Source of the DNA: Desulfobaculum xiamenense
Lineage (GTDB): Bacteria > Desulfobacterota > Desulfovibrionia > Desulfovibrionales > Desulfovibrionaceae
Length of the DNA: 64,000 bases
Assembly: GCF_011927665.1 (NCBI RefSeq)
Contig: NZ_JAATJA010000002.1
Span: forward strand, 1 to 64,000
Reading direction: 5' to 3'
The position numbers and the translations under genes were made by a program. Shown in pieces: positions 54,322 to 64,000 of the stretch. The notes under the pieces are model-generated. The model had not been told where the DNA came from and did no database searches. It was given only the letters and a program-made list of their open reading frames with translations. The number at the start of each line of letters is the position of its first letter. Positions within the stretch are counted from its first letter, which is position 1.

Positions 54322-55371
54322 ATGAAACGAACCACAACCCTTTCCGCCGCAAGCCTCGTCCACGCCCTTGATTCCATGGCGGGCAAGAAGGTGCTCATCA
54401 TCGGCGACCTCGTGCTCGACCACTACGTCATGGGCACCGTGGGGCGCATTTCTCCCGAAGCCCCCGTCCCCGTCGTGGAAGTCGGCAACGAACGGCACAT
54501 CCTCGGCGGCGCGGGCAACGTCGCGCGCAACGTCAAGACCCTCGGCGGAAGCCCCGTCATCATCGGCATCTGCGGGCGCGACCGCGAAGGCGAGCGCATG
54601 GCCCGTCTGCTACGCAAGGACGGCATCACCGCCCACGTCGTCTGCGACGACAAGCGCCCCACAACCAAGAAGACCCGCATCATCGCCCAGAACCAACAGG
54701 TGGTGCGTGTGGACTGGGAAAACTCCGATCCGGTGACGGACGCCGTGCTCGCGCAGGTCATGGACTTCGTGCGGGCCGAGGCCGTCGACGCAGGCGTCAT
54801 CATCCTTTCGGACTACGGCAAGGGACTCATCACCGAAGAGTTCATGCCCCACCTCGAAACGGAGCTGGCCGCCCTCGAAAAGCGTCCCCTCGTGCTCGTG
54901 GACCCCAAGGTCCGGAATTTCCACCTCTACACAGGTGTGGACCTCCTGACCCCCAACACCAAGGAAGCGGGCGAAGGCGCAGGCATGCCCATCTCCGCCA
55001 CCCGAGACGACATCATCCGCGCCGGGCAGGAAATCTTCCGCAGGCTCGGCAACCGGAATCTGCTCGTCACCCTCGGTGCCGAAGGCATGGCCCTCTTCGA
55101 GGGGCCGGACCGCGTCCGCCATATTCCCACGGCGGCACGAAAGGTCTTCGACGTCACCGGTGCGGGTGACACGGTCATCGCCACCCTCGGCCTCGCGCTG
55201 TCGGCAGGGCTCGACCTGCTGACCTCCTGCGCGCTTGCCAACTACGCGGCAGGCATGGTCGTCGCCGAAGTGGGCACCGCCGCCGCGCAGGCCGACGCGC
55301 TGCGCGCCGCACTCGAAAACTATCAGGACACGCCTGTGGAAGTCTGGGCCGACGAAACGGCCACAGCCTGA
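54322..55371 (+). CDS. rfaE1: D-glycero-beta-D-manno-heptose-7-phosphate kinase
   Basis: PfkB-family kinase for LPS heptose activation (349 aa), the N-terminal half of HldE as a separate protein. VLIIGDLVLDHYVMGTVGRISPEAPVPV, GGAGNVARN, and the C-terminal catalytic DVTGAGDTVIA are present. No adenylyltransferase domain follows, so that step is elsewhere. A strong terminator ends the gene. The dispersed start of the sequence is quoted only in part here. Confidence 0.93.
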   Translation: MKRTTTLSAASLVHALDSMAGKKVLIIGDLVLDHYVMGTVGRISPEAPVPVVEVGNERHILGGAGNVARNVKTLGGSPVIIGICGRDREGERMARLLRKDGITAHVVCDDKRPTTKKTRIIAQNQQVVRVDWENSDPVTDAVLAQVMDFVRAEAVDAGVIILSDYGKGLITEEFMPHLETELAALEKRPLVLVDPKVRNFHLYTGVDLLTPNTKEAGEGAGMPISATRDDIIRAGQEIFRRLGNRNLLVTLGAEGMALFEGPDRVRHIPTAARKVFDVTGAGDTVIATLGLALSAGLDLLTSCALANYAAGMVVAEVGTAAAQADALRAALENYQDTPVEVWADETATA

Positions 55372-55403
55372 TCCGCACACCATCATTCCAACGCCACCAA
55401 AAA

Positions 55404-55440
55404 GGCCGGACTCCCGCATCGGGAATCCGGCCCTTTTTTT
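55404..55440 (+). terminator. Rho-independent terminator of the heptose kinase gene
   Basis: 13-bp GGCCGGA...TCCGGCC stem with one mismatch and seven T. Confidence 0.92.
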
Positions 55441-55676
55441 CATCCCACCACAGTTCCAAACGCCACCGCCCGACCACGCCACCGGCCCATCCAAGGGACG
55501 CACATGCCGACGCGAAGGCACACGGCAAATTTCGCGCAGAATGCCACCGCAGAGCGATTTTCATCTTCTTGATGAACCACGGCCCGGATTTGCCTTAAAA
55601 ACGCGGCAGAAGCGATTTATGAAGGACGCTTTTTCAGGGGCTTTAAGACGGATGACAGGGAAAAGGGCGGGGAGGA

Positions 55677-55869
55677 GCCTCCGGCGGCCGAGGGCTGCCC
55701 GGACCCGATCAAGGGGGTGCCCCCTTGATAATCCTCACGAGGGCTTCGTCGCAAAAAGCCGCGAGACACGCCAAGGGCACCCACGCCCATCGCATATCGG
55801 GGGTCCAGGGGGCCAGCGGCCCCTTGGTCGGCGAAGCCTACGGTTTGCATAGGGAGACGAACGAAACGG
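55677..55869 (+). repeat. Structured intergenic repeat, copy 7
   Basis: Between the heptose kinase and the DsrF-like gene. Hairpin 2 (55708-55729) has outer pair A-T (ATCAAGG/CCTTGAT). Hairpin 1 is shortened and the right arm reads TCGGCGAAGCC, so this copy is older or diverging. The remaining 230 bp before it (55441-55676) show nothing I recognise. Confidence 0.83.
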
Positions 55870-55981
55870 CTGGATACGGAGAAAAGGGTGAGCGCGAGGG
55901 ATGACGGTGACTCATCCCTCGCGCACGCCGGACCTGGCGGACCGGCAGACAGAGGAGGATTCTGTCTATCTCACTGTTGCC

Positions 55982-56320
55982 CTAGAATATATTGACGGAA
56001 TCGCACTCGTCGATGATGTCGGCGATCTCGTCGGCGTCGACGACTTCGACGCTTTCTGCGTTGAGGCTGTCGGCGTCGATGCCGCGCATTTCAAGACACT
56101 TGTCGAGGCAGACGATACGTCCCTCGTTCTCGGCGAACATGGAGACCATCTTGCCGAGGTAGTCAGGCTGGGAGCCTACGAGGTTGTAGACGCCCTTGTC
56201 CATGAACACGAGGGTGGTCTCGTAGCCGCCGACCTGCGCGGCGTACGCGGTGCGGATGCCGAGGGTGGCGCGTTCGTTGCCCATGGGCTGCTTCACGATG
56301 ATGGTAGCGGTGCTGATCAT
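55982..56320 (-). CDS. DsrE/DsrF-family sulfur-carrier-like protein
   Basis: 112 aa of the DsrE/DsrF/TusC fold. ATIIVKQPMGNERATLGIRTAYAA is typical of DsrF/TusC, and RIVCLDKCLEMRGID carries a Cys before an R-G pair, the position used for sulfur transfer in DsrE/TusD. Last gene of the OsmC-DsrH-DsrE-DsrF set. Function as part of a persulfide relay is inferred from family and neighbours. Confidence 0.8.
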   Translation of the reverse strand: MISTATIIVKQPMGNERATLGIRTAYAAQVGGYETTLVFMDKGVYNLVGSQPDYLGKMVSMFAENEGRIVCLDKCLEMRGIDADSLNAESVEVVDADEIADIIDECDSVNIF

Positions 56321-56333
56321 GATTGATTCCCCA

Positions 56334-56726
56334 TTAGCCCAGAGTGAAGGCGACGTCGGAGGTCATCCAGAATTTCATGAGGGACACGCCGACATTGCCG
56401 CGCGCCACGCCATCGAGGTAATCGCAGCCTTCGGTGCCGCGGCCGTATTCCGTGGTGTGACAGGTGTGAATCGATGCGCCACGAGCGGCCAGCGCAGCGA
56501 TGCGGTCCGCCATGCGCGAGGCGTCCATATGGGCACCGAGGGCTTCGGTGATGCCCTTTTCGCCGGTCCACGGCACTTCCTTGTTGGCCATGTTGCAGCC
56601 GTTGCCGTAGAGGAAGATGTTCACGGCATGCCCGGCGGCGAGGGCGGCCTCGGAGAAGCGGACCATGAAGTCGGCGTTCTCGTTCTCGACCGCTCCGGAA
56701 AGCATGTTGATGGTAATGGTGGCCAT
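56334..56726 (-). CDS. DsrE/TusD-family sulfur-carrier-like protein
   Basis: 130 aa. INMLSGAVENENADFMVRFSEAALAAGH resembles the nucleotide-like fold of DsrE; IHTCHTTEYGRG places a cysteine four to seven residues before R-G as in the active Cys of TusD/DsrE. A second cysteine (TEGCDY) follows. It starts 9 bp after the DsrH-like stop and ends 13 bp before the DsrF-like gene. Confidence 0.82.
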   Translation of the reverse strand: MATITINMLSGAVENENADFMVRFSEAALAAGHAVNIFLYGNGCNMANKEVPWTGEKGITEALGAHMDASRMADRIAALAARGASIHTCHTTEYGRGTEGCDYLDGVARGNVGVSLMKFWMTSDVAFTLG

Positions 56727-56735
56727 GGCGTCCCC

Positions 56736-57014
56736 CTAGATGTTGATGACCTTTTCGTTGTCGAGGACGATGTCCACAATACGCGCGCAACTCACGGCCT
56801 CGCAGTCGTCTACGAGATCGAGTCCGCGATCGGCGACGGCCTTGTCGTCGGCGTAGACGGAATCGAAGCCGAGGGCGGCGAGATCCACGGCGGCACCTTC
56901 GCGGGCGAGGTACACGCCATCGCTGATGAGCAGAAGCTCACGGTCAGCATCGCCACCCAGCACGGGGACAAACTTCAGGGCGTCCGCATCGGCCCTGTCG
57001 AGCAAGAACAGCAT
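56736..57014 (-). CDS. DsrH/TusB-family-like protein
   Basis: 92 aa, the size of DsrH/TusB. It starts MLFLLDRADADAL and ends CARIVDIVLDNEKVINI, with two cysteines (DDCEAVSC). Family assignment rests on size, the start-end pattern and its place between OsmC and DsrE-like genes. No TusA or DsrC gene is in the window. Confidence 0.7.
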   Translation of the reverse strand: MLFLLDRADADALKFVPVLGGDADRELLLISDGVYLAREGAAVDLAALGFDSVYADDKAVADRGLDLVDDCEAVSCARIVDIVLDNEKVINI

Positions 57015-57023
57015 GGTCGCCCC

Positions 57024-57455
57024 CTATTTGGCCTCGATGTTGTAGTCCAGGTCCATCTCCTCTTCGAGGGAGTAGGTGACCAAAGACCCGCGCAGCAGGC
57101 CGCTGCGCACGGTTTCGAAAATGGCGCGATCCTCGTCGGCCACATCGGCCTCGACGTTCAACTCGATATGCGTGTAGCGGGTACGCAGCTGGGAGTCGCG
57201 CTCCTTGGTGATCTCGGCCTGGGCCTCGATGAGGGGAATGGCGGACGCTCCGCCCCGCTTGAGATCGTTGGCCATGGTATTGATGTAGCAGGCCAGAGAA
57301 GCGGCCAGCAGCAGACGAGCGCCCATGTGCTCCTCGGCGCGGTCGGCCTCGGAAAGTTCCATGGGATTGTAAACGAGCTTGGGCAGTGCCTTGGAGCCGA
57401 GATCGATGGTGTACTCGCCGTTCTCGGCGCGAGTCAGGGTAACGTTCACGCTCAT
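57024..57455 (-). CDS. OsmC-family protein with a single conserved-position cysteine
   Basis: 143 aa of the OsmC/Ohr/YhfA fold. LLAASLACYINTMANDL holds the first, usually peroxidatic cysteine. In the region where others have a second one (typically CPVxxTL), this protein reads LLRGSLVTYSL, with serine. It may therefore not be a normal peroxidase. ATG 57455 has GGAG 9 nt upstream. First gene of the operon, with a sigma-54 promoter 146 bp further upstream. Confidence 0.82.
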   Translation of the reverse strand: MSVNVTLTRAENGEYTIDLGSKALPKLVYNPMELSEADRAEEHMGARLLLAASLACYINTMANDLKRGGASAIPLIEAQAEITKERDSQLRTRYTHIELNVEADVADEDRAIFETVRSGLLRGSLVTYSLEEEMDLDYNIEAK

Positions 57456-57610
57456 GGTATGGTCTCCGTATGTAGCGGTTCTCAGCATCTTGCCCGGGGA
57501 CTCACGTCCCCGGGAAATGGGATGTTTGCGGAGCCTCCGCGGCGAACCCTCGCCTGTCGGAAGATCCACGCGACGGTTTGCGGTCGTCGCGTTAGGGATT
57601 GCCAAGCATG

Positions 57611-57627
57611 GAGCAGGACTCGTGCCA
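57611..57627 (-). promoter_or_regulatory. Sigma-54 promoter of the OsmC-DsrHEF operon
   Basis: Minus strand: TGGCACG (57627-57621) then CTGCT (57616-57612). GG and GC are separated by exactly 10 bp, as in -24/-12 promoters; only one base differs from TGGCACG-N4-TTGCT. Transcription would start near 57601. Confidence 0.8.
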
Positions 57628-57646
57628 TTGTGATACATGCTCACAA
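57628..57646. promoter_or_regulatory. Inverted repeat touching the -24 element
   Basis: TTGTGA-N7-TCACAA, immediately upstream of TGGCAC. It resembles a CRP/FNR-type operator, but the spacer is 7 rather than 6. Confidence 0.35.
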
Positions 57647-57700
57647 CCATGCGAAATTATGCAACTTAATTTACATGCCGCGACAAGCCGAACTCCTGGA

Positions 57701-57812
57701 GTGGGACACATCCGCGCACCAAGGACTCTTTCGCCCAACTGCAACATACTGAGATCATATGAAATGACATATGGCGTGTCACAAGCGTCCAAAGCGCGCG
57801 ATAATGTCCCAC
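57701..57812. promoter_or_regulatory. Paired 17-bp inverted elements, candidate activator sites
   Basis: GTGGGACACATCCGCGC (57701-57717) and, inverted, GTGGGACATTATCGCGC (57812-57796) agree at 13 of 17 bases. They lie about 80-190 bp upstream of the sigma-54 promoter, the usual range for enhancer-binding proteins. Confidence 0.55.
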
Positions 57813-57881
57813 GCCCATGAATCTGCACATCGCTTGTGCCGAAAGGATCAAAAAAAGAGGGCTGGAGAGACAAAAACAAGC

Positions 57882-57915
57882 CAGCCGCCCGCGAAAGGAC
57901 TTTCGCGGGCGGCTG
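57882..57915 (-). terminator. Rho-independent terminator of the sigma-54 activator gene
   Basis: Perfect 16-bp stem (CAGCCGCCCGCGAAAG arm) with a GA loop, followed on the minus strand by TTTTTG. Confidence 0.92.
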
Positions 57916-57966
57916 CAACAGGATGGAAAGCGCGACGCAATGGCGGAAACGCGCGCTGAAAAACTC

Positions 57967-59880
57967 TCAGGAAATGCCGAGCTTCTTCATCTTGCGGAAC
58001 AGCGTCTTGCGCGGAAGGCCCAGGGCCGCCGCGGTGTGCGAACGATTCCAGCGATACTTCTCAAGCGTCTGGGCAATAATCTGCTTCTCGAAGCGCTCAA
58101 GCGTCTCCCGAAGGCCCTCGCCGGTGGCGAACTCCGGAGCGGGCATGGCATCATCCTCGCCATGCTCCATGCCGCTACGCACCCCGCGCGAACTCCACAC
58201 CTCCAGCCGCCCGAAGGCCACGTAGCGCTCCAGCACGTTCTGGAGCTCGCGCACGTTTCCGGGCCAATCATGCTCCAGAAGCCGCGCGAGGTCCTTGCTG
58301 GGCAGGCGCTGCGGATGGCTGAGCTTGGCGAGGATGTGCTCCACGAGGAACGGAATGTCCTCCTTGCGCTCGCGAAGCGGGGGAAGGGTGATGGGAATGA
58401 CGTTGATGCGATAGAAGAGGTCCTGCCGGAACCCGCCCTCGTAGACCATGTCGCGCAGGTTGCGGTTGGTGGCGGCAACGACACGGAATTCAGCCCGCGT
58501 GGCCGAGGTGTCGCCAACGGCGGTGTATTCGCCGCTGCCTAGGGCGCGAAGCAGCTTGGCCTGTGCGGAAAGGCTGATCTCACCAAGTTCGTCGAGGAAA
58601 AGCGTTCCGCCACGCGCCTTGTCCAAAAGGCCCTGCTTGTCCGCATGCGCGCCGGTAAAGGCCCCCTTGCGGTGGCCGAAGAATTCGCTCTCGAACAGTT
58701 CATCGGGAATGGCGCCGCAGTTCACCGGCACGAACGGTCCCTTGGCATGCGGCCCCATGTCGTGGATGGCGTGGGCGACCAGTTCCTTGCCGGTTCCGGT
58801 CTCTCCGTAGATGATGGTGCAGGCGTCGGAAGCTCCGGCGCGCTGGATCATCTCGAAGACCTCCTGCATCTTGTTGCTCTTGCCGATGATGTTGCCCAGG
58901 CGAATGCGGTAGTCGATGGACGAGCGCAGACGATCGTTTTCGGCTCGCAGTTCGCGGCGTTCGTGCTCGATGTATTCTTCGCGCTGCTTGTATTCCGTGA
59001 CGTCCTGCACGTAGGAGATCACCGCGGGCCGCCCGTTCCACTCCACGGGCGTAGGGCGTGCCTCGAACCACAGCTTGCGGCCCTGCTTGTCGATGCCCGT
59101 CCACTGGAAACGCGCGCCTTCGCGCTTCTCCCGCAGCAGATTGCGAATGATGCGAATGTGCTGGTTGCGTTCATCCTCGGCGAGCATTCCGGTGGGCGAC
59201 ATGTTCACGATCTCCTCGGGCGAGGAGTAGCCAAACATGGTGCAGAAAGTCTGGTTTGCAAGCAGGATAGCATCGTCCTGCATGAGGGCGACGCCGCCGG
59301 GAACGTGCTCGGCAAGGGTGCGCATGCCGGTATCCACGGAACCATGCGCCAACGCGAGACTACGCACGCGCTCAAGGCACCACGAGGTCTGCACCACGCC
59401 GGTTCCGGCGGAATCCGACGACACGTGCATCATCATGAGCCGCGGGGCCTCGCCCGCACGTTGGCACTCGCCGATGGCAACCCACTCGCTGTTCAGGGGC
59501 AGATTGGCGACATTGGCCGCACCAAAGGACTCGCACGCATCGTCGAGATCACCGGCGAGAAAAAGGTCCGCAAGCGAAGGTCCGCCATCACGCCCGAAAG
59601 CCTCGCGATGCCGGGATGTTCCGAGAACATCACTGGCGGCGAGGCCGGTCAGGGTCTCAAGCGTCGCATCCCAGATGCGAACCCGGCCCTCGGTATCGAG
59701 GGCGAACTGGCCCATATTCAGGCTGTTGCAGAGCATATTCGTATCACTGACTCCATGGCTCGGAGAAACGCCGAGGAGGCCCGGGACGACACGCAGGGGG
59801 ACGGAGCTGAATGCTGGCACTGATCCGTTGCTGTGGTTGCGGGCGGTCTCCATCGCCGCTTTTCGTACGACGCGGAGCAT
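57967..59880 (-). CDS. Sigma-54-dependent PAS-domain activator
   Basis: Enhancer-binding protein (637 aa). PAS-like regions (about 45-130 and 195-310) sense an unknown signal. The AAA+ domain has GETGTGKE, GAFTGAHA (contact with sigma-54), FLDELGEI and the arginine finger region FRQDLFYRINVI. A Fis-type HTH ends the protein (RSHTAAALGLPRKTLFRKMKKL). No receiver domain. The start is uncertain (59880 or 59853). It lies just upstream of the OsmC operon, which has a matching promoter. Confidence 0.93.
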   Translation of the reverse strand: MLRVVRKAAMETARNHSNGSVPAFSSVPLRVVPGLLGVSPSHGVSDTNMLCNSLNMGQFALDTEGRVRIWDATLETLTGLAASDVLGTSRHREAFGRDGGPSLADLFLAGDLDDACESFGAANVANLPLNSEWVAIGECQRAGEAPRLMMMHVSSDSAGTGVVQTSWCLERVRSLALAHGSVDTGMRTLAEHVPGGVALMQDDAILLANQTFCTMFGYSSPEEIVNMSPTGMLAEDERNQHIRIIRNLLREKREGARFQWTGIDKQGRKLWFEARPTPVEWNGRPAVISYVQDVTEYKQREEYIEHERRELRAENDRLRSSIDYRIRLGNIIGKSNKMQEVFEMIQRAGASDACTIIYGETGTGKELVAHAIHDMGPHAKGPFVPVNCGAIPDELFESEFFGHRKGAFTGAHADKQGLLDKARGGTLFLDELGEISLSAQAKLLRALGSGEYTAVGDTSATRAEFRVVAATNRNLRDMVYEGGFRQDLFYRINVIPITLPPLRERKEDIPFLVEHILAKLSHPQRLPSKDLARLLEHDWPGNVRELQNVLERYVAFGRLEVWSSRGVRSGMEHGEDDAMPAPEFATGEGLRETLERFEKQIIAQTLEKYRWNRSHTAAALGLPRKTLFRKMKKLGIS

Positions 59881-59911
59881 ACGCCCTGATTTGTGAAAAA
59901 TAAAGCATGAC

Positions 59912-59941
59912 GGGGGTCCGGAGCGCGATGCCCCGACCCCC
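59912..59941 (-). terminator. Hairpin after the outer-membrane protein gene
   Basis: GGGGGTC / GACCCCC stem; a T-rich stretch (TTTATTTTT) starts about 8 nt later on the minus strand. Confidence 0.55.
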
Positions 59942-59954
59942 CGCGTGCTCGCAG

Positions 59955-60875
59955 CTAGTTGAACATGCTGCCGAGATCGAAGGTCTTGATGAACTTGAAT
60001 TCCACGCGGTAGTCGTCGCTACCGGGCTTCACGTTCTCGTACCAGCGGTAGACGGGCATGGTCACGGCACCGCCGCAGATCAGGCCCATCGGGGCGTACT
60101 TGAAGGTCACCTTGGGACCGACGTACCACTCCACGCTGGAATCGTTCATGCGCTCGCCGAACTTCTGGGACTCGTCGTTCCACTCGAAGTTGGACTCCAC
60201 GCCGAGGTCGAAGTTGGCGCTCAGCGCGTAGGCCCAACCGGCGTTCCAACGCATGCGGTCAGGATGGGTGTAGTCGTGTCCGCCTTCCCAGAAGGTGGTG
60301 TAGTTCACTTCGGTGTCGAAGCGGTTGGCGCCGTAGAAGTAGGTGGCGCCAACGCCGCCCAACAGGCCCCACGCACCGTTGCCGATGAAGTCGTTGGACT
60401 GCTTGTCGAGGCTGCCGGTGGGCAGCACGACGCCCATGTCCAGAGCGAGGTTGATCACGTCGCCCTGACCCTGATTCATCAGGATCTTGTGCAGGACGGC
60501 GGTGGTGTCGCCCCAGCCATGCTGGGACTTGTCACCGGCCGGGGTGTCGAGATCCACGTTGTAGATGGGGGTGCAGGTACGGATGTCCAGGCCGGGAGCG
60601 ATGCCGTAGCGGGTCTTGGCAAGCACGACGCTCTTGTCGACCTTGATGTTGTCGTTGATCTTGTCGCTGTAGTGGCGAACATGATCGGCTTCCTTCCACG
60701 CGTAGTTGGCGACGGCGGCAAACTTGCCGACCGGGAAGCCGGTGCCACAGGGACCGAACACGCCGGTGACCGGCGGGACGGCCTTGGGAGCGGGGGCCGC
60801 ATCTCCAGCCAGCGCGGCGACGCCGGACAGGAGCACCGTAACCAGTGCGAGAGACAGAATCCTTCCGAGTTTCAT
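59955..60875 (-). CDS. Outer-membrane beta-barrel protein (phenol MetA-pathway/transporter type)
   Basis: 306 aa with a Sec signal peptide (MKLGRILSLALVTVLLSGVAALA). The mature protein has alternating strand-like segments with Tyr/Trp/Asn girdles (ANYAWKEADHVRHYSDK, GVVLPTGSLDK, YYFYGANRF-like region), GLLGGVGATYFYG and a C-terminal Phe-Asn. This fits the COG4313/Phenol_MetA_deg barrels. It follows the TRAP transporter genes by 142 bp and might admit the same substrate. GGAGG is 6 nt upstream of the start. Confidence 0.8.
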   Translation of the reverse strand: MKLGRILSLALVTVLLSGVAALAGDAAPAPKAVPPVTGVFGPCGTGFPVGKFAAVANYAWKEADHVRHYSDKINDNIKVDKSVVLAKTRYGIAPGLDIRTCTPIYNVDLDTPAGDKSQHGWGDTTAVLHKILMNQGQGDVINLALDMGVVLPTGSLDKQSNDFIGNGAWGLLGGVGATYFYGANRFDTEVNYTTFWEGGHDYTHPDRMRWNAGWAYALSANFDLGVESNFEWNDESQKFGERMNDSSVEWYVGPKVTFKYAPMGLICGGAVTMPVYRWYENVKPGSDDYRVEFKFIKTFDLGSMFN

Positions 60876-61017
60876 TTCATTCCTCCAGATTTTTGAGACA
60901 AGTATCCCCATGCTCTTTCCCCAACCATTTGAAATCATGGGAAAGAAGCTTGAAGGCAGCGTTCTGCCGAATGTGTGAGGGATCAGTCGACCGTGTCGGG
61001 GACGGCGTTCCTCGCAG

Positions 61018-62976
61018 CTAGAAGCACAGCGACACCAGCCCTGTCGCGATGCCCGGGAAGGCGATCAGCAGGACGAGGCTCAGCACCATGCAGATGAAGA
61101 ACGGGATGATGCCGATGAAGATGGTCCCCATGGGCACGTCCTTGGCCACGCTGGACAGGGCGAACACGTTGACGCCGATGGGCGGGGTGATCTGGCCCAT
61201 CTCCATGATGATGACCGTGAGCACGCCGAACCACACCGGATCGAAGCCGAGGGCCTGAACCGTGGGGAAGATGGCGGGCAGGGTGAGCAGGATCATGGGG
61301 ATGACGTTCATCAGGCAGCCAAGCACCATGTACAGGCCGATGATGCCCGCCAACACGGCGTACTTGTCCAGTCCGTGGGAGGTGATGACTCCCGCGAGGT
61401 CGAAGGGCAGGCGGCTGGCGGCAAGGAAGTAGCCGAGGATGCCGACGCCGATGAGGATCATCAGCAGCTTGGATGTGATGAGTACGGTCTGCTCGCAGGC
61501 GCGGACCAAACCTTCCCATGTCAGGCGGCGGCGAATGATCATGATGGCAAAGGAGCCGACCACGCCGATGGCGCCGCCCTCGGTGGGGCTGAACACGCCG
61601 GAGAGGATGCCGCCGAGGATCAGGATGAACAGGGAGAGCATGCCGAGGATGCCCTTGAGGGAACGGAGCTTCTCGCCGAAGGACACGGCCTCGCCACGGG
61701 GGGCGATATCCGGACGGACCATAGCGATGAGCATGATGCTCACGATGAACATGGCCGCCATCATCAGGCCGGGCATGAGACCCGCGATAAACAGCTTGCC
61801 CACGGACTCCTCGGTGACGATGGCGTAGAAGATGAAGCCCACGCTCGGGGGAATGAGGATGCCGAGGGTACCGCCAGCGGCAAGAGCGCCGCAGGCGAGA
61901 CTGGGCTTGTACTTCTTCTGGCGCATCTCAGGCAGGGCCACGGAACCCATGGTCACTGCGGTGGCCATGCTATCGCCGCACACGGCGGCGAAGCCGGAGC
62001 AGCCCGCAACGGCCGCGATGGCCAGTCCACCCGGCAGACGGCCGAGCCACTTGTACGCGGTGTCGAAGAGGTCCTTGCTGATACCCGCCTCGGAGGCCAG
62101 AAGGCCCATGAGGATGAACAGCGGTGCCACGGCGAGGATGAAACTCGCGGCGGTGGCGTAGGGCGCAAGGCCAAGGGTGTTCAGGGCGGGGGTCAGGCTG
62201 AAGCCAAGGGAGCCGAGTCCGATGAAGCCCACCACGCCCATGGCGAAGCCGATGGGCATGCCGAGCAGCAGAAGGACCATCATGAAGGCCATGCCGAGGC
62301 TACCTAGGCAGAGGCGGCTGGGACGCACGGGCAGGCTCTTGATCCACAGGGGAGCGGCAAGCACCACGACGCCCGCAACAAGAGCGAGCACGATGCCGAG
62401 CCATGCGCCGTCGCGCACGTTGCGCGAAAGGCTCCTCAAGGTCTGCTGCAGGATGACGAGCATGAGCACGAACAGGCCGAACGCGGCCAGCGCCACGAAG
62501 ATCCACATGGGGACCTTGAGCATGATGCTGTATTCGCCGACCTTCTTGAGAGTGGCCAGAACGGTGCGCCAGCCCATGAGGGCGAAGAAGGCCGTGCAGG
62601 TGACGCCGTTGAAGGTTCGCAGCACGCCCGCGGTACGGGGCGAGAGCTTGGAGGTGAGGAGGTCGATCTCGATGTGCCCGTCCTTCTTGTGCGTGTAGGC
62701 GAGGGACAGGAACACGATGGCCGCCATGAAGAACTCCTCCAGCTCGATGATGCCGGGGATGGACTTGTGGACGGCAAAGCGCGCCACCACGTCGAGGGTG
62801 ATGGGCACTGACATAAGCGCCACGGCGATGGTGGCCAGGGCGAACATCCTGCTCGCCACAGGCTCCAGGATGACGTCCATGGCGTCGGCGAGCCTGTCGA
62901 GGACATTGCGCTCGCCATTGCCGATACGCGTGGAGTCGATGGTGGAATCGAGGATTGCTTCGGACATAATTCTCAT
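61018..62976 (-). CDS. TRAP transporter fused small and large membrane subunits (DctQM)
   Basis: 652 aa. The N-terminal ~190 residues are the four-helix DctQ part (MFALATIAVALMS, IELEEFFMAAIVFLSLAYTHKK). The remainder is the 12-helix DctM part with GGLAIAAVAGCSGFAAVCGDS, GILIPPSVGFIFYAI and the C-terminal QITPPIGVNVFALSSVA. Fusion of the two is common. The start at 62976 has AAGG close by; 62967 is an alternative. The substrate is unknown. Confidence 0.93.
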   Translation of the reverse strand: MRIMSEAILDSTIDSTRIGNGERNVLDRLADAMDVILEPVASRMFALATIAVALMSVPITLDVVARFAVHKSIPGIIELEEFFMAAIVFLSLAYTHKKDGHIEIDLLTSKLSPRTAGVLRTFNGVTCTAFFALMGWRTVLATLKKVGEYSIMLKVPMWIFVALAAFGLFVLMLVILQQTLRSLSRNVRDGAWLGIVLALVAGVVVLAAPLWIKSLPVRPSRLCLGSLGMAFMMVLLLLGMPIGFAMGVVGFIGLGSLGFSLTPALNTLGLAPYATAASFILAVAPLFILMGLLASEAGISKDLFDTAYKWLGRLPGGLAIAAVAGCSGFAAVCGDSMATAVTMGSVALPEMRQKKYKPSLACGALAAGGTLGILIPPSVGFIFYAIVTEESVGKLFIAGLMPGLMMAAMFIVSIMLIAMVRPDIAPRGEAVSFGEKLRSLKGILGMLSLFILILGGILSGVFSPTEGGAIGVVGSFAIMIIRRRLTWEGLVRACEQTVLITSKLLMILIGVGILGYFLAASRLPFDLAGVITSHGLDKYAVLAGIIGLYMVLGCLMNVIPMILLTLPAIFPTVQALGFDPVWFGVLTVIIMEMGQITPPIGVNVFALSSVAKDVPMGTIFIGIIPFFICMVLSLVLLIAFPGIATGLVSLCF

Positions 62977-63024: not shown

Positions 63025-64000
63025 TTACATCTTGAAGCCGCGTCCGGTTTCGCCAGCATACTGATCGCGCAGACGGAAGGCGTCTTCGACGATGGCGCGG
63101 GCATTCTTGAAGCCGCGTCCTTCCATCTCGGCGATCCAGTTCTCGCGCAACTGCGCGGTGGCGGCGATCCAGCGGTCACGCTCGGCCGCGTCGAGCACGA
63201 TGAACTCGTGTCCGCCCTTCTTGAGGGTCTCGGAATCGCGGATGGCGCCCTCATCGAGGGTCACGCCACAGCGCCGAGCCATGACCTTGCCGGTGGTCTC
63301 GGTGAAGGCCGTCTTCGCGCCGTCACTCAGGCCATCCCACAGATCCTTGTTCATGCCAGCCCAGAAGGCATTGGCGAAGAGGTCGCAGATGGTGGTGTAC
63401 TTCACGGCCTCGCTGATCTTGTAGGAGACGATGGGAGCCAGCGGGCACAGCACGCCGTCGGCCATGCCACGCTCAAGGGCAAGGTAGTTGTCGGTCGGGG
63501 GCAGCTGGATGGGATTCGCGCCAAGGGCGTTGAGAATATTGATGGAGGTCCGGTTCCAGGCGATAATCTTCATGCCCTTCAGGTCCGCCATGGTGCGCAC
63601 CGGAGTGGTGGTGTGCAGCTGGTAGGTGGCGCTAGCCCAGTGCCACATCAGACGGATGTCCTTGTACTCGGCCTGAATCTCGGGATACTTGGCGTACAGG
63701 TCGGAAATGATGAGCGAACCGCACTCCGCGCCGGGCACGAGGCCGGGCAGTTCGAGAACGTTGCTCAGGTCGAACTTCCCGGGGTTGCGCGGGCAGTCCA
63801 TGGCACCGATGGCAAGCATGCCGGACACGGTGGAATCATAGTAGTCGGAGATGGGACACAGGGTGTTGGGGTTGAAGTAGGTGAGTTCCACTTCTCCGCC
63901 GGTGGCCTTGGCCATTTCCTTGAACCACGGCTCCCACGCGTTGGTCACGGTGGGGTGGGTATTCATGTAGATCGAGCTCATGGGAAGATCCATGCCCGCA
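63025..64000 (-). CDS. TRAP transporter substrate-binding protein DctP (5' end beyond the window)
   Basis: At least 324 residues of a periplasmic solute-binding protein. The reading frame continues past position 64000, so the signal peptide and probably 20-40 N-terminal residues are missing. Visible family features: THPTVTNAWEPWFKEMAKATGGEV, PVRTMADLKGMKIIAWN (with the arginine that binds a carboxylate), NYLALERGMADGVLCP, and a C-terminal helix. First gene of the dctP-dctQM-porin order. A carboxylate or sulfonate substrate is possible, but this is inference. Confidence 0.9.
   Translation of the reverse strand, partial: AGMDLPMSSIYMNTHPTVTNAWEPWFKEMAKATGGEVELTYFNPNTLCPISDYYDSTVSGMLAIGAMDCPRNPGKFDLSNVLELPGLVPGAECGSLIISDLYAKYPEIQAEYKDIRLMWHWASATYQLHTTTPVRTMADLKGMKIIAWNRTSINILNALGANPIQLPPTDNYLALERGMADGVLCPLAPIVSYKISEAVKYTTICDLFANAFWAGMNKDLWDGLSDGAKTAFTETTGKVMARRCGVTLDEGAIRDSETLKKGGHEFIVLDAAERDRWIAATAQLRENWIAEMEGRGFKNARAIVEDAFRLRDQYAGETGRGFKM

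Follow-up and report, generated by a model that had tools for sequence, protein, structure and literature searches.

In this study, we have analyzed a 64,000-nucleotide stretch of Desulfobaculum xiamenense DNA (the window) and conclude that the sigma-54 regulon that can be read from its sequence is real, largely conserved and ordinary in its regulatory logic. The explanation that we consider probable as a whole is that of a small sigma-54 regulon, run by an adjacent PAS-type activator, which would feed a proposed pathway of import, alkaline-phosphatase-superfamily (AlkP) chemistry and sulfur handling. The OsmC operon at the center of this work makes up one half of a bigger gene cluster, also conserved, that encodes a transporter, an AlkP-superfamily protein, DsrE/F/H-like proteins, an OsmC-like protein and a sigma-54 activator.

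The OsmC operon, its promoter and its neighbors

The operon consists of four minus-strand genes, which encode an OsmC-like protein of 143 aa (57024..57455) that keeps the first Cys (C56) and has Ser at the second position, a DsrH/TusB-like protein of 92 aa (56736..57014) without a Cys near residue 20, a DsrE-like protein of 130 aa (56334..56726) with an invariant Cys89-His90, and a DsrE/F-like protein of 112 aa (55982..56320) that matches Pfam PF02635. The first-pass annotation had read these genes as an OsmC-DsrH-DsrE-DsrF operon, and the names hold as "-like" only. It had also placed a PAS-type sigma-54 activator just upstream, which is what we find: the gene at 59880-57967 (57967..59880, minus strand) encodes a 637-aa protein of PAS, sigma-54 AAA+ and Fis helix-turn-helix domains, and it adjoins its putative target operon. 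Farther along the same strand lie the gene for a Phenol_MetA_deg family protein (Pfam; 59955..60938), which we take to be an outer-membrane channel (porin), and those for a fused TRAP transporter, DctQM (61018..62976), and a TRAP solute-binding protein, DctP (63025..64000), whose gene extends beyond the window end. The porin gene has the same position in two relatives, G029, which belongs to another genus of the same family, and G121, in which contig breaks divide the locus. Just beyond the window, an AlkP-superfamily protein of 656 aa is encoded by a gene that precedes DctP and is itself preceded by a sigma-54-like promoter and activator sites.

Between 59700 and 63200, a scan with a loop limit of 8 flagged no minus-strand terminator-like or sigma-70-like match; therefore, the genes from AlkP to the activator may be one unit. 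Visual inspection showed a GGGGGTC/GACCCCC inverted repeat at 59912-59942, in the gap that separates the porin gene from the activator gene; on the minus strand, T-rich DNA comes after it. This repeat, which the scan did not flag at that loop limit, might serve as a terminator. An intrinsic-terminator-like hairpin at 57882..57915 (minus strand), 3' of the activator gene, parts that gene from the OsmC operon.

The promoter of the OsmC operon (TGGCACGAGTCCTGCT, 57612..57627, minus strand) reads TGGCACG-AGTC-CTGCT from 57627 to 57612, has exact GG-N10-GC spacing, matches the -24/-12 consensus and aligns with the promoters of G029 and G121. The first-pass annotation had proposed this TGGCACG-N4-CTGCT promoter with the same exact spacing, and the proposal is borne out, with coordinates correct within one base. 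The distance to the ATG of the OsmC-like gene at 57455 is 157 bp, and transcription of the operon would start near 57601. By an ad hoc consensus score with a maximum of 14.5 and weights set from recall, the promoter scores 13.9, which makes it the top sigma-54-type match in the 64-kb window; this score was equaled in 1 of 2,000 first-order Markov sequences of the 511-bp region (minus strand). RpoN is encoded in the genome. A sigma-70-like match (10 of 12) was found at 57782-57754 on the minus strand, and four such matches were found in the region, compared with 1.1 expected.

Fold analysis showed a strong leader hairpin of the OsmC operon at 57493..57514 (minus strand), which reads CCCGGGGAC-GUGA-GUCCCCGGG from 57514 to 57493. 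A GC-rich leader hairpin without a U run is present at a similar position in G029 (locus L026) and G121 (locus L082), and the fold z-scores of the window, G029 and G121 leaders were -3.8, -3.9 and -1.3, respectively. An Rfam scan of 55300-60000 gave a single sub-threshold match, which was judged to be chance.

Upstream of the promoter there are two putative activator sites: a proximal one, GTGGGACA-CATC-CGCGC, at 57701..57717 on the plus strand, which is partly kept in G029 and G121, and a distal one, GTGGGACA-TTAT-CGCGC, at 57796..57812 on the minus strand, which is partly conserved. The sites are centered at about -108 and -203, counted in bp from the inferred start. The two 17-bp inverted elements, 13 of 17 bases identical, had been described in the first-pass annotation; they are present as described, and both fit GTGGGACA-N4-CGCGC exactly. 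They are the best inverted 17-mer pair within 57628-57875; when Markov sequences were made for this interval, 58 of 500 contained a pair that equals or exceeds 13/17. For a longer stretch that includes the terminator, the stem of which scores 16, 13 was reached by 16 of 60 Markov sequences. Judged as a pair alone, the two elements are only suggestive; the pair is credible because the motif recurs and is conserved, pair identity alone being insufficient. Head-to-tail repeats of GTGGGACA were also seen at G000:C1:104470-104518 and C1:62957-62984, where G000 is the window's own genome, and these are perhaps the site of another regulator.

Recurrence of the motif in the genome and in relatives

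Within the 18 kb examined, the motif recurs at three promoters of the locus: those of the OsmC operon, of AlkP and of a gene just outside the window that we take to encode a chemoreceptor, having named it from its methyl-accepting signature motif. CTGGGTCACAATCGCGC lies 79 bp upstream of CGGCACA-TTGG-TTGCT before the AlkP gene, and in front of the chemoreceptor gene, GTGGGACACGAACGCGC is located 63 bp upstream of GGGTACG-GGGA-TTGCA. The general form TGGGWCANNNNCGCGC (TGGGWCA-N4-CGCGC) occurs seven times in the 3.64-Mb genome, with four of these sites located within 11.5 kb, beside sigma-54-like promoters; the reversed pattern occurs once. The A/T choice (W) was made after the own genome and G029 had been inspected, and the motif was refined on sites already seen. 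When up to three mismatches were allowed, 15 sites were found in the locus, compared with 14.9 expected; there is no enrichment at this level, and the strength of the motif therefore rests on exact matches.

The gene orders AlkP-DctP-DctQM-porin-activator and OsmC-DsrH-DsrE-DsrF are both kept in G029, where three of the seven motif sites of the genome fall at the two homologous promoters (Poisson 8e-7, with the A/T choice made post hoc) and the reversed pattern occurs four times. In G121, one of six sites precedes AlkP, 142 bp from CGGCACATTGATTGCT, a distance equal to that in G029; the reversed pattern again occurs four times. Another G121 site, on contig C25, had no recognized cluster gene nearby and was set aside.

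In the alignment of the AlkP upstream regions, the promoter and each of the two sites stand out as conserved blocks in all three genomes (own, G029 and G121), and the promoter keeps CGGCACATTG(G/A)TTGCT in all three. In the OsmC upstream alignment with G029 and G121, the promoter is conserved and the proximal site keeps GGTGCGCG and TGTC, with a variable CCCA end; the distal site is reduced to GGGACATT or near it, and no exact motif match was found before the OsmC operon of G121. An extra site about 142 bp from the OsmC promoter is exact in G029, one base off in G121 and absent in the window. Since the sites are partly shifted between genomes, it is the pairing, not the exact layout, that is kept before OsmC. 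The first-pass annotation had suggested that the pair be sought in relatives, and the outcome is mixed: the AlkP promoter sites are retained throughout, and the proximal OsmC site is retained with changes in its TGTCCC half; however, the distal OsmC site is kept only partly in the two relatives that have this gene order. The chemoreceptor promoter showed no conservation, the best same-strand scores upstream of its homologue being 11.1 in G029 and 10.9 in G121; it was given reduced weight, having been seen in the own genome only.

In a distant Deltaproteobacteria MAG (L045), the gene that immediately precedes DctP-DctQM-AlkP-DsrH-DsrE-DsrF-OsmC encodes a related activator, and the locus carries TGGCACGCATGTTGCC and two copies of TGGACGTTTTTGTCCCA, an altered form of the motif; the opposite strand of TGGACGTTTTTGTCCCA is TGGGACAAAAACGTCCA, the left half of which is the same as that of the window motif. 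Signal-controlled sigma-54 transcription via the neighboring activator is thus well supported as a reading of the recurrence of the motif, of the homologous promoters in G029 and G121 and of the altered form in L045. This upholds one part of the earlier description of the locus as a signal-controlled sulfur-relay operon; however, the sulfur relay itself is unproven.

The wider cluster and its proteins

A DsrE-like profile search of 348 genomes of the order gave 23 matches at E < 1e-3, of which 20, own genome included, were below 1e-50; the matches at E of about 1e-3 in G093, G006 and G024 were set aside. OsmC-like matches in G046 and G022 were dropped, no cluster being present, and weaker ones were found in G004, G072, G066, G081 and G064. 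When two short conserved peptides were compared with a named genome collection (84,980 species), seven loci were found; six were close, and these belonged to Desulfovibrionaceae, Desulfovibrio, Pseudodesulfovibrio and Deltaproteobacteria MAGs. When 395 genomes sampled from the phylum were searched, DsrE-like matches at E 1e-10 were found in two (the own genome and, weakly, G675), and AlkP matches at E 1e-30 were found in 9 of 297 genomes.

Twenty-five loci were annotated, one of which (L050) lacks the cluster and two of which (L026 and L089) are parts of one. The recurring set comprises a transporter, AlkP, DsrH/E/F-like and OsmC-like proteins, a "tail" protein and a sigma-54 activator; the activator was not seen in L028 or in L075, which is cut by a contig end, as are L077 and L080. 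The transporter is of the BCCT class in most loci, of the TRAP class in G000, G029, G121 and L045, and a taurine/sulfonate-like ABC system in L087, a count that leaves out L083 and L088. A search of solved TRAP binding proteins gave 14 matches at E 1e-10, with a ligand named for none of them in the table. SaoP-like permease matches had suggested a link to the Sao system, which was dropped: the matches were below the cut-off, and PMC13188914, in its available sections, concerns other proteins.

In 18 of 20 loci, the gene chosen as the lead has a sigma-54-like promoter (score of at least 12) before it: 15 directly, plus L090, L076 and L083, where the start or gene call had hidden the promoter. 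In the controls, such a promoter was scored before 15 of 109 further long ORFs and at 185 of 4,000 random positions. No sigma-54 match at score 12 was found in L028 and L092, BCCT clusters of the window's own genus, and in L091 a sigma-54-like promoter stands before the second OsmC gene of the cluster. In most clusters, the activator is of a second type and the upstream site is a different one, CGACA-N4-TGTCG, which occurs in 51 copies over 18 loci, with at least one copy in 16 of the 18, compared with 0 or 1 per set in 20 Markov sets; the 18 second-type loci include L028, where no activator was seen. The six window-type loci are without CGACA-N4-TGTCG, and the 18 second-type loci are without TGGGWCA-N4-CGCGC. 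The recognition helices, LPRKTLFRKMKK in the window type versus LNMRTMQRKLKK or variants in the second type, differ in line with the two different sites. None of these locus counts is independent, since all of the loci are related. The own genome itself carries a second cluster, the BCCT-type L028 (G000:C1:137000-151000), which has a separate tail protein and CGACA-N4-TGTCG at 1236, 7794 and 7812.

The DsrE-like and DsrF-like proteins, at 29.7 and 49.6 bits, are above the PF02635 gathering score of 22.7 bits; the DsrH-like protein is below the Pfam gathering score and had no match in the PDB. The OsmC-like protein reaches 24.7 bits against PF02566, below the gathering score of 27.5, which its G037 homologue passes at 28.1. 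The NCBIfam equivalog cut-offs for TusB/C/D were missed (TIGR03010, 24.3 of 94.15 bits; TIGR03011, 27.5 of 49.2; TIGR03012, 22.2 of 89.25). The DsrE-like protein has a Cys89-His90 that is invariant in 14 of 14 sequences, and the structures nearest to the fold predicted for it (pLDDT 74) are those of DsrE 2HY5_A (E 4e-4, TM 0.58) and YchN; Cys89 aligned with the Cys at YchN chain residue 78 (E 0.016), and the 2HY5 alignments stop before Cys78. In the OsmC-like proteins, the first catalytic Cys (C56) is present in 15 of 15 and the second position is Ser in 14 of 15. Judged by position, not by alignment, none of 24 DsrH-like ORFs has a Cys near residue 20, with one having a Cys near residue 12 and one near residue 35; 20 of the 24 have in common a Cys at about residue 71, which is not where the Cys20 of DsrH lies. 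The operon frame of the first-pass annotation was too small, in that the operon belongs to a cluster with a transporter and AlkP, and its sulfur-relay reading is unproven, with Dsr-like proteins that fall below the TusB/C/D cut-offs and an OsmC-like protein that lacks the second catalytic Cys.

The AlkP protein, or an AlkP-derived tail protein, of these clusters has an invariant C terminus, REPWD(K/H)HDCA, in which the Cys is penultimate. The tail protein is related to AlkP but reduced in size: over its final 86 residues, it shares 53% identity with the C-terminal end of the window-type AlkP (E 4e-28; 6e-28 by profile comparison). All 19 tail ORFs end in REPWDKHDCA, as do those of three of three further loci (L110-L112). 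The window-type AlkP ends in REPWDHHDCA in G000, G029 and L045 (there in a separate frame), and in G121 it is the same as far as the cut; in the other aligned clusters, AlkP is without the arm, which is left to the tail protein. Distant AlkP relatives outside such clusters (L113-L115) are also without it. AlkP residues D14, T54, D364, H368, D418, H419 and H553, which are presumably the metal ligands and nucleophile of the superfamily, are invariant in 13 of 13 sequences, and AlkP has a Type I phosphodiesterase Pfam match. Against the model of PhnA (phosphonoacetate hydrolase), AlkP reached 29.3 bits, compared with a cut-off of 407.55, a weak likeness. In its Type I phosphodiesterase match and its invariant presumed catalytic residues, AlkP resembles PhnA and the nucleotide pyrophosphatase-phosphodiesterases; however, it is far below the PhnA cut-off, bears the C-terminal Cys arm and keeps different genetic company. 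A structure model of AlkP from three sequences had a mean pLDDT of 39 and was unusable. The tail protein, for which one L028 protein was scanned, gave no match to the DsrC/TusE model TIGR03342 and two weak matches to other families.

The variant clusters L110, L111 and L112 carry AlkP, the tail protein, a second-type activator and OsmC. No DsrE/F/H was found within 16.5 kb in these loci, nor genome-wide in G135 and G156 at E 1e-10; therefore, the tail does not need DsrE/F/H. In these clusters, the arm could be unloaded or reduced by other means; alternatively, it could be without a sulfur role. In L111, the one of the three that was searched, OsmC is followed by a dihydrolipoyl dehydrogenase gene that is above the cut-off; L110 and L112 have ORFs of similar size. 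L115 (G399), a distant TRAP-AlkP neighborhood, has a thioredoxin-reductase-like gene and no recognized Dsr-like gene.

Proposed mechanism and its alternatives

We postulate that the activator senses a signal via its PAS region and that, as site conservation suggests, it would bind TGGGWCA-N4-CGCGC copies about 60-200 bp upstream of sigma-54 promoters and open them. Based on gene order, one such promoter would drive OsmC-DsrH-DsrE-DsrF and another AlkP-DctP-DctQM-porin-activator; a third would serve the chemoreceptor, in the own genome only. From the sequence comparisons, binding at these sites and the roles of the OsmC and AlkP promoters are very probably as proposed. Because the activator lies within the AlkP unit, it would raise its own level. 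The transporter would then import a small organic acid or zwitterion, a class of substrate that is suggested by the exchange of TRAP, BCCT and taurine-like ABC systems, and the AlkP enzyme would act on it. Finally, the OsmC-like and DsrE/F/H-like proteins would handle a step of sulfur or thiol chemistry in which the REPWDHHDCA Cys arm of AlkP takes part, on the model of DsrEFH handing sulfur to the penultimate Cys of DsrC. The sulfur part of this last step is tentative.

In the relay of Allochromatium vinosum, sulfur moves from Cys78 of DsrE to DsrC, where the penultimate Cys accepts it, and dissimilatory sulfite reducers have been reported to lack DsrEFH (PMC3397948, available text). As in that system and its TusBCD and TusE counterparts, the cluster has a trio of small Dsr-like proteins, a Cys that is conserved in the DsrE member and a putative partner with a strictly conserved penultimate C-terminal Cys (PMC3397948, same text). 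However, the cluster proteins are below the equivalog cut-offs, the DsrH-like protein lacks Cys20, the arm is on an AlkP-type protein and not on DsrC, and the host is a sulfite reducer. The penultimate Cys of the arm resembles the sulfur-accepting arm of DsrC, and by this analogy a sulfur relay to the AlkP arm is plausible. The host genome encodes its own DsrA and DsrC; therefore, a relay to the AlkP arm would be additional. More doubtful is the full proposal that DsrE/F/H-like proteins and a one-Cys OsmC exchange sulfur with the penultimate Cys of the REPWD(K/H)HDCA arm, as a convergent counterpart of DsrC, in a sigma-54-switched pathway by which sulfate reducers would take up and use a small organic compound.

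The regulation could be as proposed, with the OsmC-like and DsrE-like proteins protecting the Cys of the AlkP arm or handling a toxic product, so that sulfur is not the payload. Members of the OsmC family are thiol peroxidases, which counts for such a role, as do the pairing of OsmC with dihydrolipoyl dehydrogenase in L111, with no DsrE/F/H nearby, and the thioredoxin-reductase-like gene of the distant TRAP-AlkP neighborhood. However, the second catalytic Cys is missing from 14 of 15 OsmC-like sequences, and an importer under sigma-54 control would fit the use of a substrate over defense; we regard detoxification or redox repair as unlikely. Alternatively, the cluster may serve organosulfonate or taurine-like catabolism, in which AlkP would supply dissimilatory sulfite reductase by releasing sulfite, or sulfur in some other form, and DsrE/F/H and OsmC would be accessory carriers. 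Organosulfonate degradation with TRAP import has reportedly been found in sulfate reducers, and a sulfate reducer with a TRAP importer is what we have here, although the AlkP and Dsr-like set sets this cluster apart. The three transporter classes found with the set, the DsrA and DsrC of the host and the weak likeness of AlkP to phosphonoacetate hydrolase would all suit such a pathway; however, the transporter class does not fix the substrate, there was no known desulfonation enzyme among the cluster genes run and we know of no hydrolytic C-S cleavage by the AlkP enzyme family, so that this reading is quite unlikely. That the promoter and paired elements are chance, with the operon read from another promoter, could draw on the Markov sequences that match the pair and on the sigma-70-like match and is very improbable, given the rarity of the promoter score in controls and the fact that the motif turns up again at promoters of this locus and at the homologous ones of other genomes.

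The regulon that we favor, with its adjacent activator, has clear parallels. In Desulfovibrio vulgaris Hildenborough, 36 sigma-54 regulons have been described; their activators are one-component proteins, of which six contain PAS domains, and are often encoded beside conserved sigma-54 targets (PMC4641369, available text); however, DsrE, OsmC, TusB, betaine, phosphodiesterase, alkaline phosphatase and TRAP are not mentioned in the main text of that paper, as far as it was available (PMC4641369). The first-pass annotation knew of no described system with this set, and in the open-access full-text literature (subscription papers and supplements apart) no paper apparently describes it; the transporter/AlkP/Dsr-like cluster is thus apparently undescribed.

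In conclusion, the analysis provides a defined regulon with testable sites for an apparently undescribed gene set, and it places DsrE/F/H-like proteins in a dissimilatory sulfite reducer, joined to a hydrolase superfamily via an invariant Cys arm. If the proposed relay is true, the arm would be an independent counterpart of that of DsrC, and the cluster would point to an unrecognized nutrient or electron acceptor of sulfate reducers.
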